A program made the position numbers and the translations under genes. A stretch of 64,000 nt of DNA from Phragmitibacter flavus (GTDB lineage: Bacteria; Verrucomicrobiota; Verrucomicrobiia; Verrucomicrobiales; Verrucomicrobiaceae), in the NCBI RefSeq assembly GCF_005780165.1, contig NZ_VAUV01000013.1:62001-126000 (forward strand). Direction: 5' to 3'. Under the pieces are notes generated by a model that was not told the origin of the DNA, made no database searches, and was given only the letters and a program-made list of their open reading frames with translations. This document shows, in pieces, positions 29,512-44,545 of the stretch. The first letter of the stretch is position 1, and each line of letters begins with the position of its first letter.

Positions 29512-30825
29512 TCACATGTTCACCAAGCTAAACATCAAGTCCGCCTCGCTCACCACCTGACCGTTCACGATGCAGCGTCCCTTTGCCTGACCAATCGAAC
29601 GTTTCACTTTCAACATCTCCGTCTCGATAAACAGGATGTCCCCCGGCAAAACCGGCCGGCGCCACTTCACATTGTCCGCGCTCATGAAATAACCAATCTT
29701 GCCCTGATTCTCCGGTGCCCGCAGCAACAGGATCGACGCCACCTGCGCCATCGCCTCCAACTGCAACACGCCCGGCATGATCGGATGACCCGGGAAATGC
29801 CCCTGGAAAAACGGCTCATTGATCGTCACGTTCTTCACTCCTGTGCACTTCGTCTCGCCCTCAAAACCCACAATGCGATCCACCAAAAGGAATGGATAAC
29901 GATGCGGCAGAATCTTCATGATCTCATTGATCCCCAACACCGCCTCCCCATGCGGAATGCTCACCGGCACCGGCACCATCGACCGCATTTCTTCATACGA
30001 TTTCTTCAACTTCCGCGCCAGCTCCGTGTTCGGACCATGCCCCGGACGCACCGCAATCACGTGGCCCATGATGCGTTTTCCAAACAATGTCAAATCACCC
30101 ACGATATCGAGGATTTTGTGCCTCACAAACTCCTCATCAAACCGCATCGGATGTTTGCTCAACGCCGAATCCCCACGGATCACCACCGCACTCTCCAGCG
30201 TCCCCCCCTTGATCAGCCCTTTCTCCAGCAACGGCGCAATGTCCTCGTAAAAAACAAAAGTCCGCGCCGGAGCAATCTCCTTTTCATAAGTCTCGGGATT
30301 AATCTCCGTCGAATAAAACTGCGTCGTCCTCCCACCCGGACCCACATGCGTGCAGGAGATCCGAAACTTTTTGTCCGGCACAATCGTCAACAAACTGCCA
30401 TCGCGTGACTCCAGATGCATCGGCTCGCGCACTTCAAAGACCGACCTCAACTCCGCCTGCTCCACCCGACCGGCCTTCTTGATCAGTTCCACAAATGGCA
30501 GAGAACTCCCATCCGCGATCGGCGGCTCATTCGCGTCCATCTCCACAATCGCATTGTCAATCCCCATCCCTGTCAACGCCGACAGCACATGCTCCACCGT
30601 ATGCACAATCACGCCGCCTTCAGCAATCGTCGTCGACCGCTCCACTTTCTGCACCTTATCCACGGAAGCCTCAATGAACGGCTTGTCCTCCATATCGACC
30701 CGGCGGAACTTGATCCCAAACCCCGCAGGTGCCGGTTGCAGGGTCAGCGTAACCTTTTCGCCAGTATGCAACGAAGTGCCTTCGAGAGAAGCCGCTTTAG
30801 CCAGAGTGTGTTGACGGTCAGACAT
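29512..30825 (-). CDS. lpxC/fabZ: Bifunctional LpxC deacetylase / FabZ dehydratase
   Basis: 437 residues. Residues ~1-285 are UDP-3-O-acyl-GlcNAc deacetylase LpxC, with zinc-binding His in HTVEHVLSAL and HKILDIVGDL and active-site GHVIAVRPGHG. Residues ~295-437 are (3R)-hydroxyacyl-ACP dehydratase FabZ, with LPHRYPFLLVDRI, catalytic FFQGHFPGHPIMPGVL and EAMAQ. The fusion is known in Bacteroidota and some PVC bacteria; it joins the committed lipid A step with a fatty-acid step that competes for the same hydroxyacyl-ACP. Confidence 0.95.
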   Translation of the reverse strand: MSDRQHTLAKAASLEGTSLHTGEKVTLTLQPAPAGFGIKFRRVDMEDKPFIEASVDKVQKVERSTTIAEGGVIVHTVEHVLSALTGMGIDNAIVEMDANEPPIADGSSLPFVELIKKAGRVEQAELRSVFEVREPMHLESRDGSLLTIVPDKKFRISCTHVGPGGRTTQFYSTEINPETYEKEIAPARTFVFYEDIAPLLEKGLIKGGTLESAVVIRGDSALSKHPMRFDEEFVRHKILDIVGDLTLFGKRIMGHVIAVRPGHGPNTELARKLKKSYEEMRSMVPVPVSIPHGEAVLGINEIMKILPHRYPFLLVDRIVGFEGETKCTGVKNVTINEPFFQGHFPGHPIMPGVLQLEAMAQVASILLLRAPENQGKIGYFMSADNVKWRRPVLPGDILFIETEMLKVKRSIGQAKGRCIVNGQVVSEADLMFSLVNM

Positions 30826-31418: not shown

Positions 31419-32906
31419 CTACCCCGGCACCGCAAACACCGCCCTCACACCCCCACTCCCACGATTCCGGATCACCACCGTTCCTCCGTGCAGCGCCGCC
31501 GCCTCCTTCACAAAACACAATCCCAACCCGCTGCTCTTCTTCCCTGTTCCCGGCCTCGGCAGCGAATAAAACCTCTCAAAAATCCGCGACGCCGCATAAT
31601 CCGGCATCCCCGGTCCCTCATCCTCCACCAAAAACCTCACCCAGCGCTCCTCGTCATCGCGCTTCAATCTCACCAACACCACTCCACCATCCGGCGAAAA
31701 ATCCACCGCATTCTGCACCAGATTGCTCAACGCCGTGTGCAACAAAAACGCCTCCCCAAACACTTTCAATCCGTCCTCAATCTCGCACTTCACCCGCAAC
31801 TGACGCTGCTCCGCCACCGCCGTGAAATGCTCACACACCTCGCGCGCCACCGCACTTAAATCGACCTCCATCGCCGACTCTAAAAATTTCTGCTTCTCCA
31901 GCGCCGTCAGCTTCAACAGACGATCCAACAAATCCTGCAATCGCAACGACTCCAGCTGAATATTCCGCAAAAACTTCTGCCGCTGCGCCTCGTTCATCTC
32001 GCCTTCCTGCAACAACTCCGATGCCCCGCGAATCGCCGCCACCGGACTCTTCAACTCATGCGTCAACGTCTGCACATAATGCTCCACTGACTCCCGGTTC
32101 TCCAACACATCCCTCATCGACTCAAACGCCCCGCCCAACGTCTTCATCTCGCTCCCATGCAACCCCGGCAAACGCGGTCGCTCCCCCCTCGTAATCGCCC
32201 GCGCGTAATCCGTCAGCCGACGAATCGGACGCGTCGTCCACCGCGCCAGCAAAAACGACCCCATCATCATCGCCAAAACCAAACTCCCAATCGTCCGCTT
32301 CAACCACTCCTTCGTCTCATCCCGAAACATAAAAACGTTCTTCTGCGGCTTACCCAAACTCACCACCCCCACAATCCTCTCCTCCACAAAAATCGGCGCC
32401 CCGACAAACAGCATCGACGAGTTCTTGTCCTCCTCGTTCCATCGCGTCGACCTCGCTCCATACATGCCTTTTAACGTCAACAACACATCCCGCATCGACC
32501 GCACATCGCCCACCTGCTCCGGGTGCATCGAATCGAACAACACCCGCCCGTCCGCGTCCGTCACATACACTTCAAGATCCACTTCGGTCTTCACCAAAGA
32601 ATAGATTCGCGCCTCCAACACCCTCCCCTTCACCCCCACAAACGCTTCCTCCAACACCTTCGGATCAAAATTTCCCCCTGGCCCCAGATCCCGCTCCAGC
32701 AGCTCCGCCAGCAGGTTCGCCATGTCCACCATCCCCTCCTCCGCCGCCTCCAGATACTGCCTCTCCACCCGATCCAACACCTTGTCCATCATCAACCAAA
32801 ATCCCATCCCTGCAATCAAGGTAAACCCCGCCAGCAACCGCGACGTCAGCGACGCCGTGTTGATAAAGTGCATCACCAATCTGAAGTAAAAAGCCAGCCA
32901 CTTCAT
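31419..32906 (-). CDS. creC: CreC-like sensor histidine kinase
   Basis: 495 residues from ATG 32906, which has GGAAGG five bases upstream; a longer form in the frame is unlikely. Two membrane helices (LAGFTLIAGMGFWLMM and GSLVLAMMMGSFLLARW) bracket a periplasmic sensor domain, then HAMP-like TRPIRRLTDYARAI. The phospho-acceptor His is in LTHELKSPVAAIRG; the N-box is NLVQNAVDFS, G1 is DEGPGMPDY, and G2 is GLGLCFVKEAAALHGG. Similarity to CreC is reinforced by creB- and creD-like genes 2-5 kb away, although an opposite-strand gene separates it from them. Confidence 0.85.
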   Translation of the reverse strand: MKWLAFYFRLVMHFINTASLTSRLLAGFTLIAGMGFWLMMDKVLDRVERQYLEAAEEGMVDMANLLAELLERDLGPGGNFDPKVLEEAFVGVKGRVLEARIYSLVKTEVDLEVYVTDADGRVLFDSMHPEQVGDVRSMRDVLLTLKGMYGARSTRWNEEDKNSSMLFVGAPIFVEERIVGVVSLGKPQKNVFMFRDETKEWLKRTIGSLVLAMMMGSFLLARWTTRPIRRLTDYARAITRGERPRLPGLHGSEMKTLGGAFESMRDVLENRESVEHYVQTLTHELKSPVAAIRGASELLQEGEMNEAQRQKFLRNIQLESLRLQDLLDRLLKLTALEKQKFLESAMEVDLSAVAREVCEHFTAVAEQRQLRVKCEIEDGLKVFGEAFLLHTALSNLVQNAVDFSPDGGVVLVRLKRDDEERWVRFLVEDEGPGMPDYAASRIFERFYSLPRPGTGKKSSGLGLCFVKEAAALHGGTVVIRNRGSGGVRAVFAVPG

Positions 32907-32979
32907 GAAACCTTCCGCCCAGCCTCCCCGTTTCTCCCATCCCACGCAATCTCAACTTCACAAAAAACCTACCCCGTCC

Positions 32980-34518
32980 ATGCGCCTCCACCTGTTCCTA
33001 GTCCTCCTCATCACTCTCAGCACCTGCCTCCGTGCCGATGAAATCCGACTCAGGCCATCCACCTCTTCAAAAACCAAAATCCTTCAACCCGCCATTGATG
33101 CCGCCAACCCCCGCGACACTCTCATCCTCGCACCTGGCATTTACTTCGAAACCATCACCATCAACAAACCCCTCACCCTCCTCGGCCAACCCGGTGCCAT
33201 ACTCGACGGTTCCAAACCCATCACCACCCCCTGGACACCCGCCCCCGATCTCCCCCACGTCTACACCACCCCCTGCAAACACCGACCCGCCGGACTCCTC
33301 TTCCAAGACAAATTTATCGCCGCCCTCGACTTCGACCGCGCCCAAAAACCCGGCGACTGGCACTGGCAAACTCTTCTCAAAAACGGCCCGCCCCTCAGCC
33401 AGTTCACCCAAATCCGCGCCCTTTATATCTACCACCCCAGAGAAAAACTCATCTATCTCCGCCTCCCCGACAACGTCACTCCTTCCGACACCAATCTCGC
33501 CATCGTCCCCAACGACGCCCCTCTCATCACCATCGAAAACACCCAAAACGTCCAGATAAAAGATCTCAGCCTCCGTCACTCCGCCACCTCCATCCATCTT
33601 CAAAACAGCACCGATTCCACCATCGAAAAATGCCAGATCACCAGCTACGAAGAAACCGGCATCCTGCTCACTAACAACACCTCGCGCTGCACCATCCACA
33701 ACAATCAAATCACCCGCGGTGCCCTCGAAGAATGGCAGCCTCCCCTCACCGACGACAAACCCAACTACGAAATCTGGCGCATCCACAAAGACACCGGCTA
33801 CTACGACCGCGTCGCCATCAACCTTTTCCGCGCCGGCACCGCCAACCGCATCCTCCTCAACAACATCGACCGCGTCTTTGACGGCATCAATGTCGGCGAC
33901 TACTCCGTTGAAACCCTCGGCAAACCCCTGACCAACCCCGACCACGGACGCGACACTGAAATCGCCCACAACCTCATCGAAAACACCCGCGACTCCGCCA
34001 TCGAACTCGGCGGCGGCTGCATCAACGTCAACGTCCACCACAACACCCTGCGGCGCACCCACGGAGGCCTCCGTTTCAAAACCCCCCGCATCGGACCCGT
34101 CTTCATCCATCACAACCAGCTCATCGACGGCTCCCCCTTCAACATCTGGTTCAGCATGGACTCCTCCCCCGCCGAGGGCTTCCTCTATCACAACACCATC
34201 ACCGGCAAAAACCCTGCCGTCAGCATCCTCATCCACAAACCCACCGAAAAATTCACCACCCCGAACTGGCACTTCATCAACAACCTCATCCTCACCAAGG
34301 AAGGCATCTACAAATCCCGCAGTAAAGGCCTTCCCGACGACCTTCAAATTTCTGATCACAACCTCATCCAGCCCCCTGCCCCAATCGATCAACCCCTCGA
34401 AGCCGCCATCGACACCGGCACCGACCTCTCCATCCTTTTCAAAGGCAAGCTCCCCGACACCCAACCAACCACCTTCAAAGGCAAATCCCCCGACATGGGC
34501 GCCTCCGAATGGCGTTGA
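32980..34518 (+). CDS. Secreted right-handed parallel beta-helix protein
   Basis: 512 residues from ATG 32980, giving a signal peptide (MRLHLFLVLLITLSTCLRA). The body is a right-handed beta-helix (NosD/pectate-lyase-like repeats): ITIENTQNVQIKDLSLRHS, STIEKCQITSYEETGILLT, NRILLNNIDRVFDGINVGD and VNVHHNTLRRTHGGLRFKT. The C-terminal phrase SPDMGASEWR is typical of such exported proteins. Probable polysaccharide-active or binding protein. It starts 73 bases from the creC-like start, on the opposite strand. Confidence 0.8.
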   Translation: MRLHLFLVLLITLSTCLRADEIRLRPSTSSKTKILQPAIDAANPRDTLILAPGIYFETITINKPLTLLGQPGAILDGSKPITTPWTPAPDLPHVYTTPCKHRPAGLLFQDKFIAALDFDRAQKPGDWHWQTLLKNGPPLSQFTQIRALYIYHPREKLIYLRLPDNVTPSDTNLAIVPNDAPLITIENTQNVQIKDLSLRHSATSIHLQNSTDSTIEKCQITSYEETGILLTNNTSRCTIHNNQITRGALEEWQPPLTDDKPNYEIWRIHKDTGYYDRVAINLFRAGTANRILLNNIDRVFDGINVGDYSVETLGKPLTNPDHGRDTEIAHNLIENTRDSAIELGGGCINVNVHHNTLRRTHGGLRFKTPRIGPVFIHHNQLIDGSPFNIWFSMDSSPAEGFLYHNTITGKNPAVSILIHKPTEKFTTPNWHFINNLILTKEGIYKSRSKGLPDDLQISDHNLIQPPAPIDQPLEAAIDTGTDLSILFKGKLPDTQPTTFKGKSPDMGASEWR

Positions 34519-34530
34519 CGCATTTCTTCT

Positions 34531-34657
34531 GCCGACGTCACGTCGGCTCAGTTCCATGGAGCGCCGATGTTTCATCGGCCATCCCTCCCATCATCGGACC
34601 ACCGGCGTTCCGTCGGTCTGCCTTATCATTCGTGTGAATTCGTGTCCATTCGTGGTT
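34531..34657. repeat. Cluster of three REP-like hairpins plus a 10-base tandem repeat
   Basis: The 150-base gap between the beta-helix and creB stops holds GCCGACG-TCA-CGTCGGC (34531-34547), GCCGATG-TTT-CATCGGC (34563-34579) and ACCGGCG-TTC-CGTCGGT (34601-34617, one G-U pair). Three 10-base units starting ATTCGTG follow at 34628-34657. All stems are 7 bp with 3-base loops. The cluster may also end transcription from both sides. Confidence 0.8.
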
Positions 34658-34668
34658 GAAACACCCCC

Positions 34669-35397
34669 TCACCCCTCCCAAACCTCCGCCAACGAATACC
34701 CCAAGCCCCGATGCGTCACAATCGGCTCCACCCCCTCCTTCACCGCCTTCATCTTCGCGCGCAAGGACTTCACATGCGCATCCACCGTGCGCTCCATCGC
34801 CGCATCCGGCTCATCACTCGCACACTCCATCAACTGCGACCGCGAATACACCCGCCCCGGATGTTTCGCCATCGTTTTCAAAAGCCGGAACTCATAAGCC
34901 GATAGCGGCAACGCCGATCCAAAATAACGGATCAAACACCTTCCCTCATCCACCTCCACCGGCTTCACCACCAACGCACCTTCCGACAGCTCCACCCCAT
35001 CAACACGCGCCTTCCCATTGCCGTTATATCTCCTTAACACCGCCCTCACCCGAGCCGTCAACTCACGCGGGCTAAACGGTTTGCACAAATAATCATCCCC
35101 CCCAATCTCCAGCCCCACCACCCGGTCCACCTCCGTATTCCGTGCCGTCAGAAAAATCACCGGAACATCACTCAACCCCTGCAACTTCCGGCAAACCTCA
35201 AACCCTGACATGTCCGGCAATCCCACGTCGAGAATCAACAAAGAGAAATCCTCATCAACCATCACCCGCAACGCCTCCGCCCCCGTCCCCACCACCTTCG
35301 CCACAAACCCCTCCGACTCCAGCGAATACAGAATATTATCCGCTATCGACGGCTCATCCTCAACAATCAAAACCCGCGGTGATTGATTCACATTCAT
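34669..35397 (-). CDS. creB: CreB-like OmpR-family response regulator
   Basis: 242 residues from ATG 35397. The receiver domain has VLIVEDEPSIADNIL, phospho-acceptor Asp in LLILDVGLPDMSG and conserved Lys in DDYLCKPFSPREL. The C-terminal winged helix shows LSAYEFRLLKTMAKHPGRVY and VDAHVKSLRAKM. Upstream genes on the same strand are two small paralogous membrane proteins and creD, so this looks like an operon with its regulator last. The matching kinase is at 31419-32906. Confidence 0.88.
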   Translation of the reverse strand: MNVNQSPRVLIVEDEPSIADNILYSLESEGFVAKVVGTGAEALRVMVDEDFSLLILDVGLPDMSGFEVCRKLQGLSDVPVIFLTARNTEVDRVVGLEIGGDDYLCKPFSPRELTARVRAVLRRYNGNGKARVDGVELSEGALVVKPVEVDEGRCLIRYFGSALPLSAYEFRLLKTMAKHPGRVYSRSQLMECASDEPDAAMERTVDAHVKSLRAKMKAVKEGVEPIVTHRGLGYSLAEVWEG

Positions 35398-35480
35398 AAT
35401 ACAAACTTCATCTCTGATTTCGCTACCCACCGAATAAAAAATAGCCGTGTCTAAAAGCAAACGCTTCGAATCCATAAAGA

Positions 35481-35900
35481 TTAATCTCGATTCCAAGTTC
35501 GCAACTCTCTCCACCCATTTATTTCGACTCTTTGCGTTTCCCCTTCCGGCGGAAAAATAATGATTCTTACAGAAGCTGAGTTGAGCATGTGTCCGCCCCC
35601 GATACTGAAATAGAGGCCATCCGACTCCAAAGTAGCACCATCAAACCCCAACGCCTTCAAGTCAGGCGGCAACTTATCAACTGGAACAACAGCATGATCA
35701 TTACGTGATTCAATAATCAGCTTCTTATACAACGACTCTCCGGTATCATATACCTTCGACCAATCGTCATCAGACATGCTCGACAGATGCATCGCAATAT
35801 TCTTCGCCCCTTGCTCATACTGTCCTAATTGATATCCATACCAGAACACAGGAGAAAGGATCAACAGCATGCCAAGAATAATGCGCAGGTAAATTTTCAT
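35481..35900 (-). CDS. Small membrane-anchored protein, paralog of the next gene upstream
   Basis: 139 residues from ATG 35900 (MKIYLRIILGMLLILSP); ATG 35927 is also possible. One N-terminal signal-anchor, then SSMSDDDWSKVYDTGESLY, PPDLKALGFDGATLES and a beta-rich end. The order DW-(S)-x10-helix, then LKALGF, then a Gly-rich FSIGGG, matches the protein at 35955-36422 (ADWSLMF, VEKMGF, ISGGPG). They are probably tandem duplicates within the cre operon. Function unknown. Confidence 0.65.
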   Translation of the reverse strand: MKIYLRIILGMLLILSPVFWYGYQLGQYEQGAKNIAMHLSSMSDDDWSKVYDTGESLYKKLIIESRNDHAVVPVDKLPPDLKALGFDGATLESDGLYFSIGGGHMLNSASVRIIIFPPEGETQRVEINGWRELRTWNRD

Positions 35901-35954
35901 ATAATTCCAGATAAAGAACTTCTCCATAGCCAAAACGAATCACTCGCTCTTCTT

Positions 35955-36422
35955 CTAATCTAGAGCTCCATCCTCATCCAGATAAACATACTGTGGAGTT
36001 ATGCGACCACGCGTGGAGGAATAATACACCCCTCGTTTTCTAATAACTTGCCATGATGGCTCTCCATCATTTTTCGGATGAACTAAAACATCTACGCGAA
36101 CTCCTGGGCCTCCGCTGATACTTCGGTTGAACACAAATCCTTCTTCGTAAAAAACGACCGCTGGAAATCCCATTTTCTCCACCCCCTTTGACATCTGGAC
36201 GGACTTCACTCTTTCACCAAACGATGTGCCATCACTCAGAAGCTGTTGATGCCAACGGGCCGCCTCTTTAAACATCAGCGACCAATCCGCCTCACCATAT
36301 TGGTCAAGCTTCGCACCAATTCGCTCGATATCATGACCGATCAAAATCAAATGAACGGCGCAGGAAATGGGCCCCAGAAAAATGAAACCTATGATGACAA
36401 AACAAGAAAAAACCTTTTTCAC
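35955..36422 (-). CDS. Small membrane-anchored protein, paralog of the downstream gene
   Basis: 155 residues. The start is GTG 36422, overlapping the creD stop as GTGA and with AGGAGG a few bases upstream, which decides the start over longer frames. One hydrophobic anchor (FSCFVIIGFIFLGPISCAV), then YGEADWSLMFKEAARWHQQL, GVEKMGFPAVVFYEEGFVF and ISGGPGVRVDVLVHP. Translational coupling to creD suggests it works with that membrane protein. No family recognised. Confidence 0.68.
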   Translation of the reverse strand: MKKVFSCFVIIGFIFLGPISCAVHLILIGHDIERIGAKLDQYGEADWSLMFKEAARWHQQLLSDGTSFGERVKSVQMSKGVEKMGFPAVVFYEEGFVFNRSISGGPGVRVDVLVHPKNDGEPSWQVIRKRGVYYSSTRGRITPQYVYLDEDGALD

Positions 36423-37657
36423 GCCTCCTCCTTTCTCCCACCAATCCACATACTCCGACCGCTCCCCACCACCCCATCCCAATCCACCCTCGCCGTCGCC
36501 CACATCAACCCTGCAAGTGTCGCCACCCCGATCACCGTCAACGTTAACCCGGTGAATCCTTCAAAGAAAAAGCTGTAACTGAACAACACCAGATACACCA
36601 ACTGCGCTGCCGACGCCGGACCCGCCAACGCCTTCCCTTTCACCAGATACAAATACCCGCTCGCCAAAGCCAGCGAAACCAGAGTCGCGATCACAAAACT
36701 CCATCCCAACGGCATCACATCCACCAGATATCCAAGCAACGCGTGAAACGCAAAGAACCCTGCTGCCACCAGACCATACTGCACCGGATGCAGATCCACC
36801 CCTCGCAGCATTCCCACCACCATCACCACCCCAAAAAATAGTAACAACGACAACGGCGCAAAATAGGTGATCCGCGCCACTACCGGACCCGCATTGACCA
36901 CCCCCGGCATCTCCATCGCAATCCCCCGCGCCGCCAGCACATCCTCATAACGCCACTCCAGCAACCATCCCTCCCCTTCCGCCGCTGGCGTCCGCAATGT
37001 CGGCGAACTCGACCCCACAGGAAAGCTGATCTCCTCAAAATCCGTGCGCATCTTCAGCCCAAAATCCCGCAATCTCACATCGGTTCCAAACGCATAACTC
37101 CAACTATCCATCCCCCGCGCCACATACCCAATTTCCAGCGGCAGTTCTGACTTTGCCGGAATCATCACCGAAGTCTCCACCACCCCGTTCTTCGCCGCAA
37201 CCCGCGTCTCCGTCTCCTCGCCCACGCGGAACTTGAACTGGTCATAACTCGTGTTCCCCTCCGGCAGCACCAGCTTCAACCGCACATTCTGCGCCGACTC
37301 ACTGCCGTTCGCCACCACGCCTTTCAATCCAAACGCCACATCATAAGTCCGGTGCCATAGCAAACCGCGCTTCTGCGGACGATATTTCAAATCCACCTCT
37401 ACCTGCGTCGACTCCAACCTCACCACATCCGAGCCCTGAACCATCCCCGACACTTCCACATGCCCCTGCACCAGCCCCGGCCCCCAAACCTCGCGGACCT
37501 CGTTGCCCATCTCATCCTTCGCGATTGCCGATCGCGCACTCATCCGCACCCCCAGCAAAAGCCACGCAAACGTGACCACCCAAAACACCACACCAATCGC
37601 AATCATCCGTCCAAGTTTCATAAGCATCAAAATGAGGTTCAATAATAACAACCTCAT
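36419..37657 (-). CDS. creD: CreD-like inner membrane protein
   Basis: 412 residues from ATG 37657, which has GGAGGG about 8 bases upstream; ATG 37621 is an alternative. The N-terminal hydrophobic anchor is followed by a long periplasmic domain (VEVDLKYRPQKRGLLWHRTYD, MDSWSYAFGTDVRLRDFGLK), then several helices with LHPVQYGLVAAGFFAFHALL and LVYLVLFSYSFFFEGFTG. CreD family members sit with CreBC and are controlled by them in enterobacteria and Stenotrophomonas. The creB- and creC-like genes nearby support this assignment. Confidence 0.75.
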   Translation of the reverse strand: MRLLLLNLILMLMKLGRMIAIGVVFWVVTFAWLLLGVRMSARSAIAKDEMGNEVREVWGPGLVQGHVEVSGMVQGSDVVRLESTQVEVDLKYRPQKRGLLWHRTYDVAFGLKGVVANGSESAQNVRLKLVLPEGNTSYDQFKFRVGEETETRVAAKNGVVETSVMIPAKSELPLEIGYVARGMDSWSYAFGTDVRLRDFGLKMRTDFEEISFPVGSSSPTLRTPAAEGEGWLLEWRYEDVLAARGIAMEMPGVVNAGPVVARITYFAPLSLLLFFGVVMVVGMLRGVDLHPVQYGLVAAGFFAFHALLGYLVDVMPLGWSFVIATLVSLALASGYLYLVKGKALAGPASAAQLVYLVLFSYSFFFEGFTGLTLTVIGVATLAGLMWATARVDWDGVVGSGRSMWIGGRKEEA

Positions 37658-37731
37658 TCTGTCCGCCCTCCATGAACCCTTCATGAAGCCCCGATGAATT
37701 CCCCGTGAAAAGAACTTCAGTCAGCTCACCC

Positions 37732-37766
37732 CACTTTTCACTTTTCACTTTTCACTTTTCACTTTT
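37732..37766. repeat. Seven-base tandem array (CACTTTT)
   Basis: Five exact CACTTTT units. They include the last codons and stop of the SHD1-domain gene, so its C-terminus (VKSEK) is encoded by the array. Confidence 0.92.
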
Positions 37767-38647
37767 CCATCCCCTCCCCCTGCCTTTACCGAGAAATCAT
37801 CATAATGCACATCCACCAGATTTGTCGTCAAACTCACCAATGACTTCGTCTCATGCGCCACCCCCTCCGACTTGAACACTCCCACCTCATCCCCGTTCAA
37901 AGTCACCGTCACCTCATCCCCCTTCGTCCGCGCCACCAGCGTGTGCCATTCATTCAAGGTCACCTTCACCGGCCACCTCACCACCTTCGTCTCCAGATAC
38001 TTTTTCTCCTCCGCACTGAACCCCTCCGGCGCTTTGCGCTTCGCATTCAAATCATTGCGGAACATCCCCTCCTTCGCATCCATCACCTGCACCTGCGTCG
38101 GCGATACCGACACCTGACAAACATGTCCCGCGTGCGCCCCCTTAAAATCCTTGTCATCAAACCAGATATCAAACCGCTTCGCCTCCGCACTCACAAACTT
38201 GAACTTCACCGACACCTCCAAATCCTGCTCCCCTTCAAACTTGATGTTGTCCACCGCCGCATGATCCGATCCCACCCCCGTGATCCCCACCAAAACCCCG
38301 TCCTTCACCACACTATTGCTCTTGTAATGACCCCACTTCGGACCAAACCCCTCGCCTGAAAAATCATCCTCAAATATCAACCGGTCATAATAGGCCGCGT
38401 CCTTGCCCAGCTTCTTCTCCGCATCCCATTTTTTAAGCCATACCCGGTCCTCCTCCGACAACTGATCCAGCGCGATCTCAAACGGCTTCAAGTTAAACAC
38501 CCCCTTCAGCACCCCCTCCGGCGTCAGATCCAGCAACTCCGCCTTGATCTTCCTCCCCTCCAGATTCGTCAACTCACGAAATTCCCGCCCCTCCACGAGC
38601 GACGCGAAAAAACCCAGAAACACAATGGAAAGAAGCGGCTTCATCAT
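37745..38647 (-). CDS. Exported SHD1-domain protein with LamG/DUF1080-like domain
   Basis: About 300 residues from ATG 38647 (ATG 38644 has GAGGA three bases upstream and may be the true start). Signal peptide LLSIVFLGFFASLVEG. Residues ~25-75 form an SLA1-homology-1-like module (FRELTNLEGRKIKAELL, LDQLSEEDRVWLKKW) that is common in planctomycetes and verrucomicrobia. A concanavalin-like lectin/DUF1080 domain follows (LIFEDDFSGEGFGPKWGHY, VTLNEWHTLVARTKGDEV). Probable carbohydrate binding. It lies upstream of creD but 87 bases away; co-transcription is uncertain. Confidence 0.75.
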   Translation of the reverse strand: MMKPLLSIVFLGFFASLVEGREFRELTNLEGRKIKAELLDLTPEGVLKGVFNLKPFEIALDQLSEEDRVWLKKWDAEKKLGKDAAYYDRLIFEDDFSGEGFGPKWGHYKSNSVVKDGVLVGITGVGSDHAAVDNIKFEGEQDLEVSVKFKFVSAEAKRFDIWFDDKDFKGAHAGHVCQVSVSPTQVQVMDAKEGMFRNDLNAKRKAPEGFSAEEKKYLETKVVRWPVKVTLNEWHTLVARTKGDEVTVTLNGDEVGVFKSEGVAHETKSLVSLTTNLVDVHYDDFSVKAGGGDGKVKSEK

Positions 38648-38752: not shown

Positions 38753-41700
38753 ATGTCCCGCCGCCCACTTTCCTCAAAGCCCAGCCCACCCGCCAACATC
38801 ATCCAGGTCCGCGGCGTCCATCAAAACAACCTCAAAGGCTTCGACCTCGACATCCCCCTCTACCAGCTCAACGTCGTCACCGGCCCCTCCGGCTCCGGCA
38901 AATCCTCCCTCGCCTTCGACACCATCTACGCCGAAGGCCAGCGCCGCTACGTCGAAACCTTCTCCCCCTACACGCGTCAGTTTTTTGAGCGCATGGACAA
39001 ACCAAAGGTCGACGCCATCCACGGCATCCCCCCCGCCATCGCCATCGAGCAGGTCAACAACATCCGCTCCACCCGTTCCACCGTCGGCACCATCACCGAG
39101 CTGAACGACTACCTCAAAATGCTCTTCCCCCGGCTCGCCAAAGCCACCTGCCCCAGCTGCCAGCGCCCCGTCCAGCCCGACACCCCCGACTCCATCCAGC
39201 ACGACCTCCTCCACCACCACGCCGACACCACCGCCCTCATCACCTTCGCCATTCCCGTCCCTTCCGACACCAACACCGCCGACTTCTTCACCTTCCTTCA
39301 AAGCCAGGGTTACACCCGCGTCCTCCTGTTCGGCGAAGTCATCCGCACCGACGAACCCCAATCCTTCAAAAAGAAACTCCCCGCCCAGGTCCAGGTCATC
39401 CAGGACCGCATCCAGCTCGCCCCCACCAACAAACCCCGCCTCATCGAAGCTCTCGAAGTCGCCCTCCATTTCGGCAAAGGCACCGTCGCCATCGCCCTCA
39501 CCGATCTCAAATCTCAAATCTTGGATCTCAAATCTTTCAGCACCACCTGGCACTGCGCCCACTGCGACCTCAAACTGCCCGCCCCCACCCCCGGCCTCTT
39601 CTCCTTTAACAACCCCGTCGGAGCCTGCCCCACCTGCCGGGGTTTCGGACGCACCCTCGCGCTCGACCTCACCAAGGCCATGCCCGATGAATCCCTCAGC
39701 ATCAACGAAGGACTGGTCAAAGCCTTCACCGGCGACACCTACGCCGAATGCCAGCAGGACCTCGTCAAGTGCGCCAAAGCCCGTCATATCGACCTCAACC
39801 TCCCCTTCGAAGACTACACCAAGGAAGACCGCCAATGGCTCATCGAAGGCGACAACTCCGATCCCGAAGAAGCCTATCGCAACGGTGAATGGTATGGCAT
39901 CCGCGGCTTCTTCAAATGGCAGGAATCCCGCGCCTACAAGATGCACGTCCGCATCTTCCTCAGCCGCTACCGCGCCTACACCGAATGCCCCGACTGCCTC
40001 GGTTCCCGACTCAAAATCGAAGCCTCCTTCTTCAACGTCGAAGGCAAAACCCTGCACGACCTCTGGCAACTCCCCGTCAGCGAACTTCTCCCTTATTTCG
40101 AAACCCTCCCAATCATCGACTCCGACAAAGCCGCCCGCATGTTGCGCGATGAAATCGTCTCGCGCCTCAGCTACATGGAACGCGCCGGCCTCACCTACCT
40201 CAATCTCGACCGCCAAACCCGCACTCTCTCCGGCGGCGAACTCCAGCGCGTCAACCTCACCACCTGTCTCGGTGCGTCATTGGTCAACACCCTCTTCGTC
40301 CTCGACGAACCTTCCATCGGCCTCCATCCCCGCGACATCGGCAAACTCATCGGTGTCATGGAAGGCCTCCGCGACAAAGGCAACACCCTCCTCGTCGTCG
40401 AACACGAAGAAGCCGTCATGCGCGCCGCCGACAACCTCATCGAAATCGGCCCCGGTCGCGGCGAAAAAGGCGGCCACCTCGTCTTCCACGGCCCCCTCAC
40501 CGACCTGCACACCAAAGTAGAAGGCTCGTCCCGAGCCTTATCTTCCAAAAAACCCAAAGCCCGCGACCTCACTCCCACCTTCTCCTCCCTCACCGGCGAC
40601 TACCTCTACGGCATCAAAACCATCCCCGTTCCCACCACCCGCCGCCAGCCCAAACCCGGCCAGCACATCCGCATCAAAGGTGCCAGACAAAACAACCTCA
40701 AAAACCTTAACGTCGACATCCCCCTCGGCCTCCTCTGCGCCGTCACCGGCGTCTCCGGCTCCGGCAAATCCACCCTCATCCACGACGTCCTCTACAATAA
40801 CCTCCTCCGCCAGCGCGGCGAAGCCACCGAAGACGAACCCGGCAAGGTCAAATCCATCGACGGGATCGACAAGGTCGGCACCATCGTCATGGTCGACCAA
40901 TCCCCCCTCGCCCGCACCCCCCGCAGCACCCCCGCCGTCTACATCGGTGCCTTCGACCTCATCAGGCAACTCTTCGCCGAAACCCCCGACGGCAAAGCCG
41001 ACAACCTCACCCCCGGCTTTTTCTCCTTCAACAGCGGCAACGGACGCTGCGAGCGCTGCATGGGCAACGGCTTCGAAAAAATCGAGATGCAATTCCTCAG
41101 CGACCTCTACGTCAGCTGCCCCGAATGCGAAGGCAAACGTTACCAAACCCACGCCCTAAAATACCAGCTCAACGGCAAAAACATCCACGACGTCCTCAAC
41201 CTCACCATCGAAGACGCCATCGAATTTTTCAGTTCCCTTACCAGTGACACAGGCTTGCAGCCTGTGGGTGGGACAGGCATTCTGCCTGTCCGGCAGGGAG
41301 CTCAAGTGCGGAGCCATCCACAGCCCAAACCCTCCCCCTTCGACCGCAAACTCCAATCCATCCTCGCCCCCCTCCATCTCCTCACTGAAGCCGGACTCAG
41401 CTATCTCCGTCTCGGCCAACCCCTCAACACCCTCTCCGGCGGCGAAGCCCAGCGCCTCAAACTCATTGGTCATCTCCTCGAACCCAGTTCCGAGCAAAAC
41501 ACCACCCTCTTCCTCCTCGACGAACCCACCACCGGTCTCCACTTCGACGACATCGCCCTCCTCGTAAAACTGCTCCAGCGCCTCACCAACGAAGGCCACA
41601 GTATCCTCGTCATCGAGCACAACCTCGAAGTCATCAAATGCGCCGACTGGGTCATCGACCTCGGCCCCGAAGCCGGCTCCGCAGGCGGCGAACTCGTCGC

Positions 41701-44545
41701 CGTCGGCCCCCCCGAACTCATCGCCCAATCTCAAACCTCCTGGACCGGAAAATATCTCACCGAACTCCTCAACCCATCCGCCACTTTTCGCGAACAACCC
41801 GCCAAATATCGCCCTCAGACTCTCAACCCCCAACTCTCAACTCTCAACTCCATCTCCGTCAGCGGCGCCCGCGAACACAACCTCAAAAACATCTCCGTCA
41901 ACATTCCCCGCGACGAACTCGTCGTCGTCACCGGCCTCAGCGGCTCCGGCAAATCCTCCCTCGCTTTTGATCTCATCTTCGCCGAGGGCCAGCGCCGCTT
42001 CCTCGACTCCATGTCCGTCTACGCCCGCACCTTTGTCGAGCAGATGGAAAAACCCGATGTCGACCTCATCACCGGCGTCCCCCCCACCGTCGCTATTGAA
42101 CAACGCGTCTCGCGCGGCTCCGGCAAATCCACCGTCGCCACCGTCACCGAAATCTACCACTTCCTCCGCCTCCTCTTCTCCAAAGTCGGCACCCAATACT
42201 GTCCCGACTGCCACATCCCCGTCGAAAAACAAAGCGTCAACGCCATCGTCAACCTCGTCGCCAAGGAAGCCAAAACCCACCTCGTCCACATCCTCGCCCC
42301 GCTCATCAAAGCCCGCAAAGGCTTCCACACCGACATCGCCGAAGCCGCCGCCAAACAAGGCATCGAAACCCTCCTCGTCGACGGCAAATTCAAAGACACC
42401 GCCAACTTCCAAAAACTCGAACGTTTCAAAGAACACACCATCGACGCCGTCGTTGCCCAAACCTCCAAAAACATCGACATCCACACCCTGCGCCCCATCA
42501 TCGAACGCGCCCTCAAGCTCGGCAAAGGCACCCTCAAACTGCGCCTCCCCGACCAGTCCATCCACATCCTCAACACCCAGATGAGCTGCCCCCAGTGCAG
42601 CATGTCCTTCGAAGAACTCGACCCCCGACTCTTCTCCTTCAACTCCCCTCACGGATGGTGCACCGACTGCCGCGGATTCGGCGTCATCACCTCCAACCCC
42701 GGCAGCGACCAAAAACGCGACGACATCTCCCAACTCGAAGCCGAACTCGAAGAAGAACGCAAATTCGACAGCGCCGACCACTCCACGGAACCCTGCCCCA
42801 CCTGTCACGGCTCCCGCCTCAACCGCATCGCCCGCAGCGTCCGCCTCAAGCGTGACACGGACTTCCAGTCGGTGCGTGAGACGGACATCCTGTCCGTCAC
42901 CAAAAAGAAATCAGCCAACACACCTCCTTCACCCCAATCCCCCCTCGCCATCGGCGACCTCGCCACCCTCTCCGCCGAACGCGCAGCCGCCCTCATCGCC
43001 ACCCTCACCTTCACCGGCACCGAAGCCGAAATCACCCGCGACATCCTCACCGAAATCAAACAACGCCTCCACTTCATGCAGGAAGTCGGCCTCGGTTACC
43101 TCCAGCTCGGACGCAGCGCCGACACCCTCTCCGGCGGCGAAGCCCAACGCATCCGCCTCTCCGCCCAACTTGGCTCCAACCTGCGCGGCGTCCTCTACGT
43201 CCTCGACGAACCCACCATCGGCCTCCACCCCCGCGACAACCAACGACTCCTCAACACCCTCCTCGCTCTGCGCGACAAAGGCAACTCCCTGCTCGTCGTC
43301 GAGCACGACGAAGAAACCATGCGCGCTGCCGACACCATCCTCGACCTCGGCCCCGGTGCCGGCCGATACGGCGGCGAAATCATCGCCCAAGGCAACCTCG
43401 CCCACATCCTCAAACACAAAACCAGCGTTACCGGCAAAGCCCTGCGCGAGCCCATGATCCACCCCCTTCATGGCAAACGCCGCCCCCTCCCCAAACCCAA
43501 CGCCCCCGACGCCTGGCTAACTCTTGAAAACGCCAACAACAACAACCTCAAGAACCTCACCCTAAAAATCCCCCTCGCCCGACTCACCGTCCTCACCGGC
43601 GTCAGCGGCTCCGGCAAAAGCACCCTCATGCGCGCCGCCCTCCACCCCGCCGTCAAAGAAGCTTTGGCAAAACCCACCAAGGCCAAACCTAAATCAAAAA
43701 ATACCAATCTCACAGGCTCAGAGAATCTTGCCTCCGTCTACGAAGTCGACCAATCCCCCATCGGCAAAACCTCCCGATCCTGCCCCGCCACTTATGTCGG
43801 CGTCCTCGACGACATCCGTAAACTTTTCGCCCAACTCCCCACCGCCCGCGCCCGCGGTTTCGGTCCCGGCCGATTCTCCTTCAACACCGAAGGCGGACGC
43901 TGCGAATCCTGCCAGGGCAACGGCGAAATCAAAGTCGAGATGAACTTCCTCCCCAGCACCCGCGTCCACTGCGAAACCTGCAACGGCCTGCGCTTCAACG
44001 CCGCCACCATGGAAGTCACCTACAACAGCAAAAACATCGGCGAAGTCCTCAAAATGAGCATCACCGAAGCCGCCGAATTTTTCTCCAGCCTGCCCAAAAT
44101 CGCCCGTCCTTTGCAACTCCTCGCCGACACCGGCGTCGGATACCTGCAACTCGGCCAACCGAGCCCCACCCTAAGCGGCGGCGAATCCCAACGCCTCAAA
44201 CTCGTCACCGAACTTCAGGCCGGCCAGGGCCGCACCATCACCGACAAAATGCGCGGCCTCAAAACCACCAAGCGCAACCTCTATCTCATCGAAGAACCCA
44301 CCATCGGCCTCCACGCCAACGACGTCGCCCGACTCATCGACATCCTCCATCGTCTCGTCGACGAAGGCCACACCGTCGTCGTCATCGAGCACGAGTTGAA
44401 CGTCATCGCTGAAGCCGACAACATCATCGACATCGGCCCCGAAGCCGGCGAACGCGGCGGACAAATCGTCGCCCAAGGCCCCCCCGAAAAAGTCGCCCAA
44501 TCCAAAACCAGCCACACCGCCCCATTTCTTAAAGCAATGCTCTAG
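38753..44545 (+). CDS. uvrA: Double-length excinuclease ABC subunit A with in-frame repeat insertions
   Basis: 1930 residues, about twice the usual 940, formed by two complete UvrA copies in tandem (four ABC ATPase modules). This form is known in Chlamydia and other PVC bacteria. It is the damage-recognition subunit of nucleotide excision repair. Walker [10 protein letters not shown] (~44), GVSGSGKST (~666), GLSGSGKSS (~1061) and GVSGSGKST (~1616). Signatures: [36 protein letters not shown]. Zinc-finger CxxC pairs are present in both copies. The fourth Walker B reads [10 protein letters not shown], with Glu for the usual Asp. Repeat-derived peptides interrupt it at residues ~251-262, 831-850, 1020-1033 and 1367-1383. 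The TAG stop is the start of a REP element. Confidence 0.93.
39504..39538. repeat. Seven-base tandem array inside uvrA (ATCTCAA)
   Basis: Units ATCTCAA, ATCTCAA, ATCTTGG, ATCTCAA and ATCTTTC encode [12 protein letters not shown] at residues ~251-262, just before the CAHC zinc-finger region of copy 1. Confidence 0.85.
41245..41290 (+). repeat. Twin-hairpin REP-like element inside uvrA, copy B
   Basis: TGA, then CACAGGCT-TGC-AGCCTGTG, five bases, and GACAGGCA-TTC-TGCCTGTC. It differs from copy A at 27185 by two bases in 46. In frame it encodes [16 protein letters not shown], between the FFSSLT and [10 protein letters not shown] blocks. Confidence 0.93.
41812..41853. repeat. Seven-base tandem array inside uvrA (ACTCTCA)
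   Basis: Six 7-base units, three of them exact ACTCTCA, encode [13 protein letters not shown] at the junction between the two UvrA copies (residues ~1021-1033). Confidence 0.85.
42853..42898 (+). repeat. Twin-hairpin REP-like element inside uvrA, copy C
   Basis: CACGGACT-TCC-AGTCGGTG (7 of 8 pairs), five bases, then GACGGACA-TCC-TGTCCGTC (8 of 8). Geometry and reading phase equal copy B, with paired changes in both arms. It encodes [15 protein letters not shown] after the CPTCHGSRL zinc-finger block of UvrA copy 2. Confidence 0.9.

Follow-up and report, generated by a model that had tools for sequence, protein, structure and literature searches.

The passages cited here describe the CreBC two-component system in a few proteobacteria and report the CreB/BlrA tag as TTCAC-N6-TTCAC, located upstream of creD (PMC4689548, PMC3660660). 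One of these sources also points out how sparse the literature on the function of CreD is (PMC4689548). In the CreBC-CreD system of Escherichia coli K-12 and the BlrAB/CreBC systems of Aeromonas and Pseudomonas, creD has TTCAC boxes upstream that are spaced 11 bp apart, and one TTCAC-N6-TTCAC pair can be seen before creD in the K-12 sequence itself. None of the top-ranked open-licence full texts dealt with a CreB regulon or a cre tag in Verrucomicrobia; one paper that names both CreBC and Verrucomicrobia predicts CreBC abundance in streams, and another does so in its reference list only.

Here we describe a Cre-type locus in a 64-kb stretch (hereafter the window) of the 5.9-Mb genome of the verrucomicrobial species Phragmitibacter flavus, labelled G000 below; related genomes are labelled G001 and so on, and their loci L066 and so on. 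A creD-like gene, genes for two small membrane-anchored proteins that we call P1 and P2, and creB follow one another on the minus strand behind an array of four regularly spaced boxes, and creC lies further along the same strand. We consider it probable that this is a CreBC-type system with an autoregulated creD-P1-P2-creB operon, and that P1 and P2 are accessory envelope proteins, probably inserted, that are made together with CreD. The 11-bp box spacing is the same as in the proteobacterial systems. However, this locus carries an array of the kind that comprises three to five TTCA[CT] boxes rather than one pair, and its CreD has diverged from that of E. coli outside the C-terminal third. Also unlike in proteobacterial Cre systems, the operon of verrucomicrobial relatives begins with an additional gene, creX, and runs creD-creB-creC, and the predicted targets in G000 include a VIT/vWA-exosortase unit, a VanZ-like gene, and other membrane genes.

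Cre proteins and the box array upstream of creD

The sensor histidine kinase CreC (31419-32906, minus strand) scores above the cut-off of NCBIfam NF008312 (518.3 versus 356 bits) and, in an alignment of 471 columns that takes in the sensor part, shares 41% identity with E. coli K-12 CreC. Likewise, the OmpR-type response regulator CreB (34669-35397, minus strand) exceeds the cut-off of NCBIfam NF008296 (301.9 versus 273 bits) and is 49% identical to its K-12 counterpart, with a DNA-binding domain that reads RTVDAHVKSLRAK versus RTVDTHIKTLRAK. The initial annotation of this DNA had already proposed a Cre-like regulon, and these scores, together with the box arrays described below, support that proposal with evidence beyond what was available to it.

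The third protein is more divergent. It passes the cut-off of Pfam PF06123 (43.6 versus 23 bits) through its C-terminal third only, which is 29% identical to that of E. coli CreD over 133 columns, and it falls below the cut-off of the NCBIfam CreD equivalog NF008712 (40.1 versus 275 bits), so we call its gene creD-like. The gene (36419-37621, minus strand) encodes 400 amino acids from the start that we prefer; it was first listed as extending to 37684 (421 amino acids). The start at 37621 appears more likely because most aligned relatives begin at the matching methionine and because the boxes overlap the longer reading. Tandem creD pairs occur in G002 (L066, 9889-12379) and G012 (L067, 7967-10429), with products that are 42-44% and 52% identical to the window CreD.

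P1 (35955-36422, minus strand; 155 amino acids, GTG start) and P2 (35481-35927, minus strand; 148 amino acids, exact start uncertain) each carry one N-terminal hydrophobic helix. The GTG of P1 (36422-36420) overlaps the creD stop codon (36421-36419) in a shared GTGA, and 27 bp separate P1 from P2, which argues for a single transcript. The gene calls thus agree with the minus-strand order creD, two small paralogs, creB and with the GTGA overlap as first annotated. The same is true of the statement that creC lies about 1.8 kb beyond creB behind an opposite-strand gene: the end of creB and the start of creC are 1,762 bp apart, with a gene for a right-handed beta-helix protein (32980-34518, plus strand; PF13229, 53.6 bits) between them that we did not consider part of the Cre system.

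The array itself (37672..37709, minus strand) reads TTCAC-N6-TTCAT-N6-TTCAT-N6-TTCAT with an exact 11-bp period. By its sequence, it is a longer version of the published cre/blr tag, with four exactly spaced boxes of which the first is TTCAC and the other three are TTCAT; several relatives have the strict TTCAC-TTCAC pair, which this array lacks. No second pair of TTCA[CT] boxes at 11-bp spacing occurs anywhere else in the window, and neither creC nor creB has a promoter there with boxes of its own. Arrays of at least three boxes occupy only four sites in the whole genome, and a control with the reversed pattern gave none. We therefore treat the array as the predicted CreB operator. A possible -10 element, CAGAAT (37656..37661, minus strand), lies 10 nt past the last box; it is a weak candidate, and in a hand-picked list of 42 loci, position 11 past the array is an A in 32 of 44 arrays. 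A heptamer repeat, TTTTCAC, adjoins the array at about 37729-37768, at the end of the upstream gene, and similar runs are present before creD in G004.

These features suggest a simple circuit, predicted from sequence, in which CreC would sense a signal and phosphorylate CreB, and CreB would bind along the four boxes and switch on creD, P1, P2, and creB together. With creB located in its own operon, the response would reinforce itself through positive feedback. Co-induction of P1 and P2 by CreB is likely under this arrangement, such that the two proteins would be made whenever CreD is made.

Box arrays in related genomes and at other genes

Arrays of this type recur in the relatives of P. flavus. 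Across 57 related genomes, the array pattern produced 167 overlapping matches (nine of them from one simple tandem run in G050) versus three for the reversed pattern. When a genome is scored as CreC-positive on a match at an E value of 1e-90, all 29 positive genomes have at least one array match (151 in total), whereas 17 of the 28 negative genomes have none. The resulting Fisher p value of 1.5e-7 is descriptive rather than a test because the genomes are related. CreC and CreD themselves co-occur in 27 of the 57 genomes, with two carrying only CreC, two carrying only CreD, and 26 carrying neither. Among the CreC-negative genomes with an array match is G021, which is only 76% complete and contains both creD and creB. 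An identical array sequence is shared by four members of one genus that show no CreC match (G043, G049, G052, and G055).

The position of the arrays is similarly consistent. A first survey covered 28 creD loci and excluded G056. Upstream sequence of 2 kb or more is available for 26 of them, and 24 of these, the window included, have an array of three to five boxes upstream on the strand of creD; none has one in antisense. The two remaining loci have degenerate arrays at about the expected distance, which were noticed after the fact. In a second survey of 80 named creD loci, whose genomes overlap in part with those of the first, an array was present 0.9-1.95 kb upstream in 45 loci (at 1.9 kb in Verrucomicrobium sp. 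BvORR034) and again in none in antisense, and four other spacings plus the reversed pattern gave two matches in all. These 45 comprise 42 of the 58 Verrucomicrobiota loci whose upstream sequence exceeds 2.2 kb and three with less, and two of them have an extra array between creD and creB.

The distance between array and creD is 1.22-1.93 kb in 23 of the 24 loci of the first survey, and only in the window does the array stand at creD itself. In relatives, this space holds creX, which encodes a protein of about 370-620 amino acids with an N terminus that looks secreted by eye (for example, L071, 7506-9251, minus strand, upstream of creD). The copy from G004, which with G001 and G017 belongs to the same family (f1) as G000, matches no Pfam or NCBIfam model. 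With this copy as the query, creX was located directly before creD in 27 of the 28 CreD-positive genomes other than G000, some of the matches being weak, with G056 as the exception. No creX counterpart was found in G000, where the only match is a local one inside a 1,470-amino-acid frame (E value of 2e-5). Most likely, the lineage of the window lost creX and the array stayed. The array would then be the old promoter of a longer operon, array-creX-creD-creB-creC, that has been kept without creX, although this direction of gene gain and loss is itself something we infer. We also considered whether P1 and P2 might be remains of creX and rejected this idea, as they show no similarity (best E value of 0.73) to 67 frames located behind arrays, the window CreD among them.

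The other three arrays of G000 are predicted to bind CreB as well, and each stands before a gene for a membrane or surface protein; all four arrays in the genome are within about 75 nt of such a gene or of creD. On contig 23, the array lies 25 nt (or about 50 nt, as the start is uncertain) before a VIT/vWA gene that is followed by an exosortase gene (L098, 5717-9177, minus strand). Elsewhere on contig 13, outside the window, an array precedes a VanZ-like gene by 22 nt, and on contig 20, an array that is turned round lies 51 nt before a gene for a 438-amino-acid membrane protein (L097, 9751-11073, plus strand). The VIT/vWA protein matches TIGR03788, the marine proteobacterial sortase-target protein, over residues 68-658. 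However, its score is below the cut-off (421.2 versus 551.65 bits), and its neighbor is an exosortase rather than a sortase. Its C-terminal end resembles PEP-CTERM by eye, and a PEP-CTERM match was reported only for the copy in G042; the copies of G000 and G042 were the only ones run against Pfam and NCBIfam.

Several of these associations extend beyond G000. We read 59 array loci that are not at creD, and a VIT/vWA protein is encoded by the first gene after the array in eight of them, each from a different genome. The 438-amino-acid membrane protein stands behind an array in six genomes, with the array turned round in five and direct in one (G042), and an alignment of the G000 protein with that of G042 gives 30% identity across 442 columns. 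A DUF1361 membrane gene is preceded by a turned array in five genomes of one genus (L158, L160, L161, L163, and L166). An array followed by a VanZ-like gene occurs in two genomes, and two unnamed families are likewise found in two genomes each, across genera. Finally, an array precedes creB in G001, creC in G053, and a gene for a PBP1A-type enzyme in G008. The turned-round cases suggest that the array may work in either orientation.

An alternative view is that the arrays serve PhoB as Pho boxes. This regulator, too, recognizes direct repeats that contain TCA and have an 11-bp period. Furthermore, CreB and PhoB are close relatives, and the window CreB scores 179 bits on the PhoB model. We nevertheless regard this view as very improbable, as the arrays stand before creX-creD and, in one genome each, before creB or creC, they track the presence of CreC, and their boxes match the published cre tag. 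Moreover, no phosphate-uptake gene was seen by eye among the first genes after the 59 further arrays.

P1, P2, and the creD-creB gap

P1 and P2 are weak but real paralogs. A BLASTP comparison gives an E value of 3e-4 with 21% identity over 73 amino acids, and local alignment yields z scores of 5.4 at full length and 6.2 without the transmembrane parts, with zero and one of 2,000 shuffles, respectively, scoring as well. The paralogy stated in the initial annotation is therefore confirmed. The accompanying remark that they belong to no recognizable family also held, with two plausible distant relatives at most. Neither protein matches a Pfam or NCBIfam family at an E value of 1, and a comparison with defense and phage families returned nothing at 0.001 (best 0.039 in PADLOC and 0.033 in PHROGs).

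Structure prediction gave models of middling confidence. The best model of P1 has a mean predicted local distance difference test score (pLDDT) of 78 and a predicted template modeling score (pTM) of 0.65, and that of P2 has values of 74 and 0.58; most of the other models scored lower, with three of five for P2 below 50. Both show an N-terminal helix, a second helix, and then beta-strands, and the C-terminal part would be located outside the inner membrane. With models of this quality, Foldseek matched neither protein to a solved fold at an E value of 0.001. A type IV pilin fold was considered for P1 on account of its long N-terminal helix and strands and was set aside, as the top match was weak (E value of 0.33, TM score of 0.21) and no prepilin cleavage site was seen by eye.

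Relatives of the pair are scarce. In the 56 other related genomes, neither protein has a match at an E value of 0.001 (best 0.00254 and 0.0329), and we reject them as conserved Cre components; in the named genome collection, P1 likewise found nothing. In 387 genomes of the phylum, its own included, P1 alone produced one weak match, in G290 (1.4e-4), which we take to be chance because the opposite strand carries a longer frame of a different kind there. A profile of P1, P2, and a protein of G039 (whose own score in this search is by construction) found a protein of G542 at 5.6e-5 among 336 genomes of the order, and with G542 added, it gave three weak partial matches in the 387 genomes. In hhalign comparisons with P1 and P2, the G542 protein reached a probability of 72.2% and the G039 protein, a hand-picked weak match, 79.5%. 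These two small membrane proteins resemble P1 and P2 in having an N-terminal hydrophobic stretch, a helix with a DW/QW motif, and then GF/AF. Unlike P1 and P2, they have no Cre protein match around them (in stretches of 8.5 kb and 3.3 kb), and in the G039 genome neither CreC (at 1e-90) nor CreD (at 0.001) was matched.

The gap that holds P1 and P2 varies among lineages. After merging at 97% creD identity, 91 distinct creD loci remain, of which 41 are followed within 3 kb by creB on the strand of creD, 38 have room for it and lack it, and 12 are cut short. Measured between match ends, the gap in the 41 loci ranges from 65 to 1,025 bp, the window having the largest; it is below 200 bp in 27 and at least 320 bp in 12. 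G002 and G012 carry a multi-transmembrane protein and a single-transmembrane protein there, and G010 carries a 240-amino-acid frame. Other long gaps hold gene pairs resembling toxin-antitoxin modules or, in front of creB, another box array. Judged by eye, the pair in L083 and L239 looks like HicB/HicA and that in L254 like a RelE-type module. Thus, the creD-creB gap is an insertion-prone slot that other lineages have filled with unrelated genes. The conserved neighborhood named as a check in the initial annotation exists as creD-creB, often with creC, and does not extend to P1 and P2, which have no match at the other creD loci searched. Similarly, its displaced kinase is genuine in the window without being unique to it: among the 41 loci, creC adjoins creB in 31 and is absent despite room in seven (window included), and the other three loci end at a contig edge.

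These observations bear on what P1 and P2 might do. One view is that they are functional sensor partners, anchored in the membrane and exposed to the periplasm, whose binding to CreC or CreD adjusts the signal. They lie on the strand of creD and overlap it, each combines a single hydrophobic helix with a C-terminal part that appears folded in the models, and G002 and G012, which encode the closest CreD relatives, also carry a small single-transmembrane protein in the slot. That protein, however, is unrelated to P1 and P2 by profile comparison (hhalign probability 0.1%), and neither the absence of P1 and P2 from other creD loci, nor the Cre-free surroundings of their distant relatives, nor their deviant composition fits well with this role. 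The earlier suggestion that the pair might act as inputs to CreC or modulators of CreD found no support, and we judge it unlikely.

The guanine-cytosine (GC) content of P1 and P2 is 0.46 and 0.44, versus 0.54-0.61 in eight neighboring genes, and at third codon positions (GC3), it is 0.43 and 0.49 versus 0.66-0.79. By codon usage, the frame of P2 is the best of six and that of P1 is beaten by an opposite frame and by another on its own strand, but all own-frame scores are near zero and we draw nothing from them. P1 and P2 might be low-constraint orphan genes that arrived as a small insertion and hitch-hike in the operon, which would be only their landing site. Their low GC and GC3, the toxin-antitoxin-like pairs of other lineages, and the near absence of relatives in the phylum are all in keeping with this possibility, to which we assign slightly less than an even chance. 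On the other side, the start-stop overlap with creD and the intact frames suggest integration into the operon, no mobile element was noticed alongside, though no search aimed at one was made, and neither PADLOC nor PHROGs gave anything better than an E value of 0.03.

Several findings weigh against the CreBC-regulated operon that we favor. P1 and P2 are not conserved with it, and the -10 element is weak. Turned-round arrays, including that on contig 20 of G000, are not predicted by an activator of fixed orientation, and many of the 59 further array loci lack a clear target. Moreover, 11 of the 28 genomes without a CreC match still have one to three array matches (16 in total), the perfect array is missing from 16 of the 58 Verrucomicrobiota loci that have over 2.2 kb of upstream sequence, and it is found at none of the 11 named loci that are outside this phylum or unassigned. 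Even so, with an operon apparently under an old array promoter and two genes that were probably inserted into it, P1 and P2 are most likely accessory envelope proteins that would be made with CreD.

Three neighboring genes complete the picture of the region. A 300-amino-acid secreted protein (37745-38647, minus strand) with a weak match to the 3-keto-disaccharide hydrolase/lectin family (PF06439, 22.9 bits, below the cut-off of 26.8) is encoded outside the predicted operon because its gene is upstream of the array. Beyond it, a 1,930-amino-acid UvrA-like frame (38753-44545, plus strand) resembles, by eye, two UvrA copies in one, and on the far side of creC, a 437-amino-acid frame (29512-30825, minus strand) reads by eye as an LpxC-FabZ fusion.

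Relevance to the biology of Verrucomicrobiota

It is tempting to speculate more broadly that Verrucomicrobiota possess an extended CreB regulon, built on arrays of three to five boxes, that couples CreBC to a cell-surface program, and that the creD-creB gap serves as a socket for lineage-specific small membrane modulators, of which P1 and P2 would be one pair. Such a program might include creX-creD, the VIT/vWA and exosortase unit, the VanZ-like and DUF1361 genes, a further membrane protein, and, as seen in a single relative, a PBP1A-type enzyme. This proposal is tentative, and we hold it to be possible rather than probable.

For the two small proteins, the locus offers a caution, in that a gene can sit within a conserved operon without belonging to the conserved system. 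More generally, an array that can be read by eye in another phylum yields a list of predicted targets, a promoter apparently kept after its first gene was lost, and, with creX, a new protein linked to creD. Together, the arrays and creX make the signal of CreBC and the role of CreD testable questions in Verrucomicrobia.

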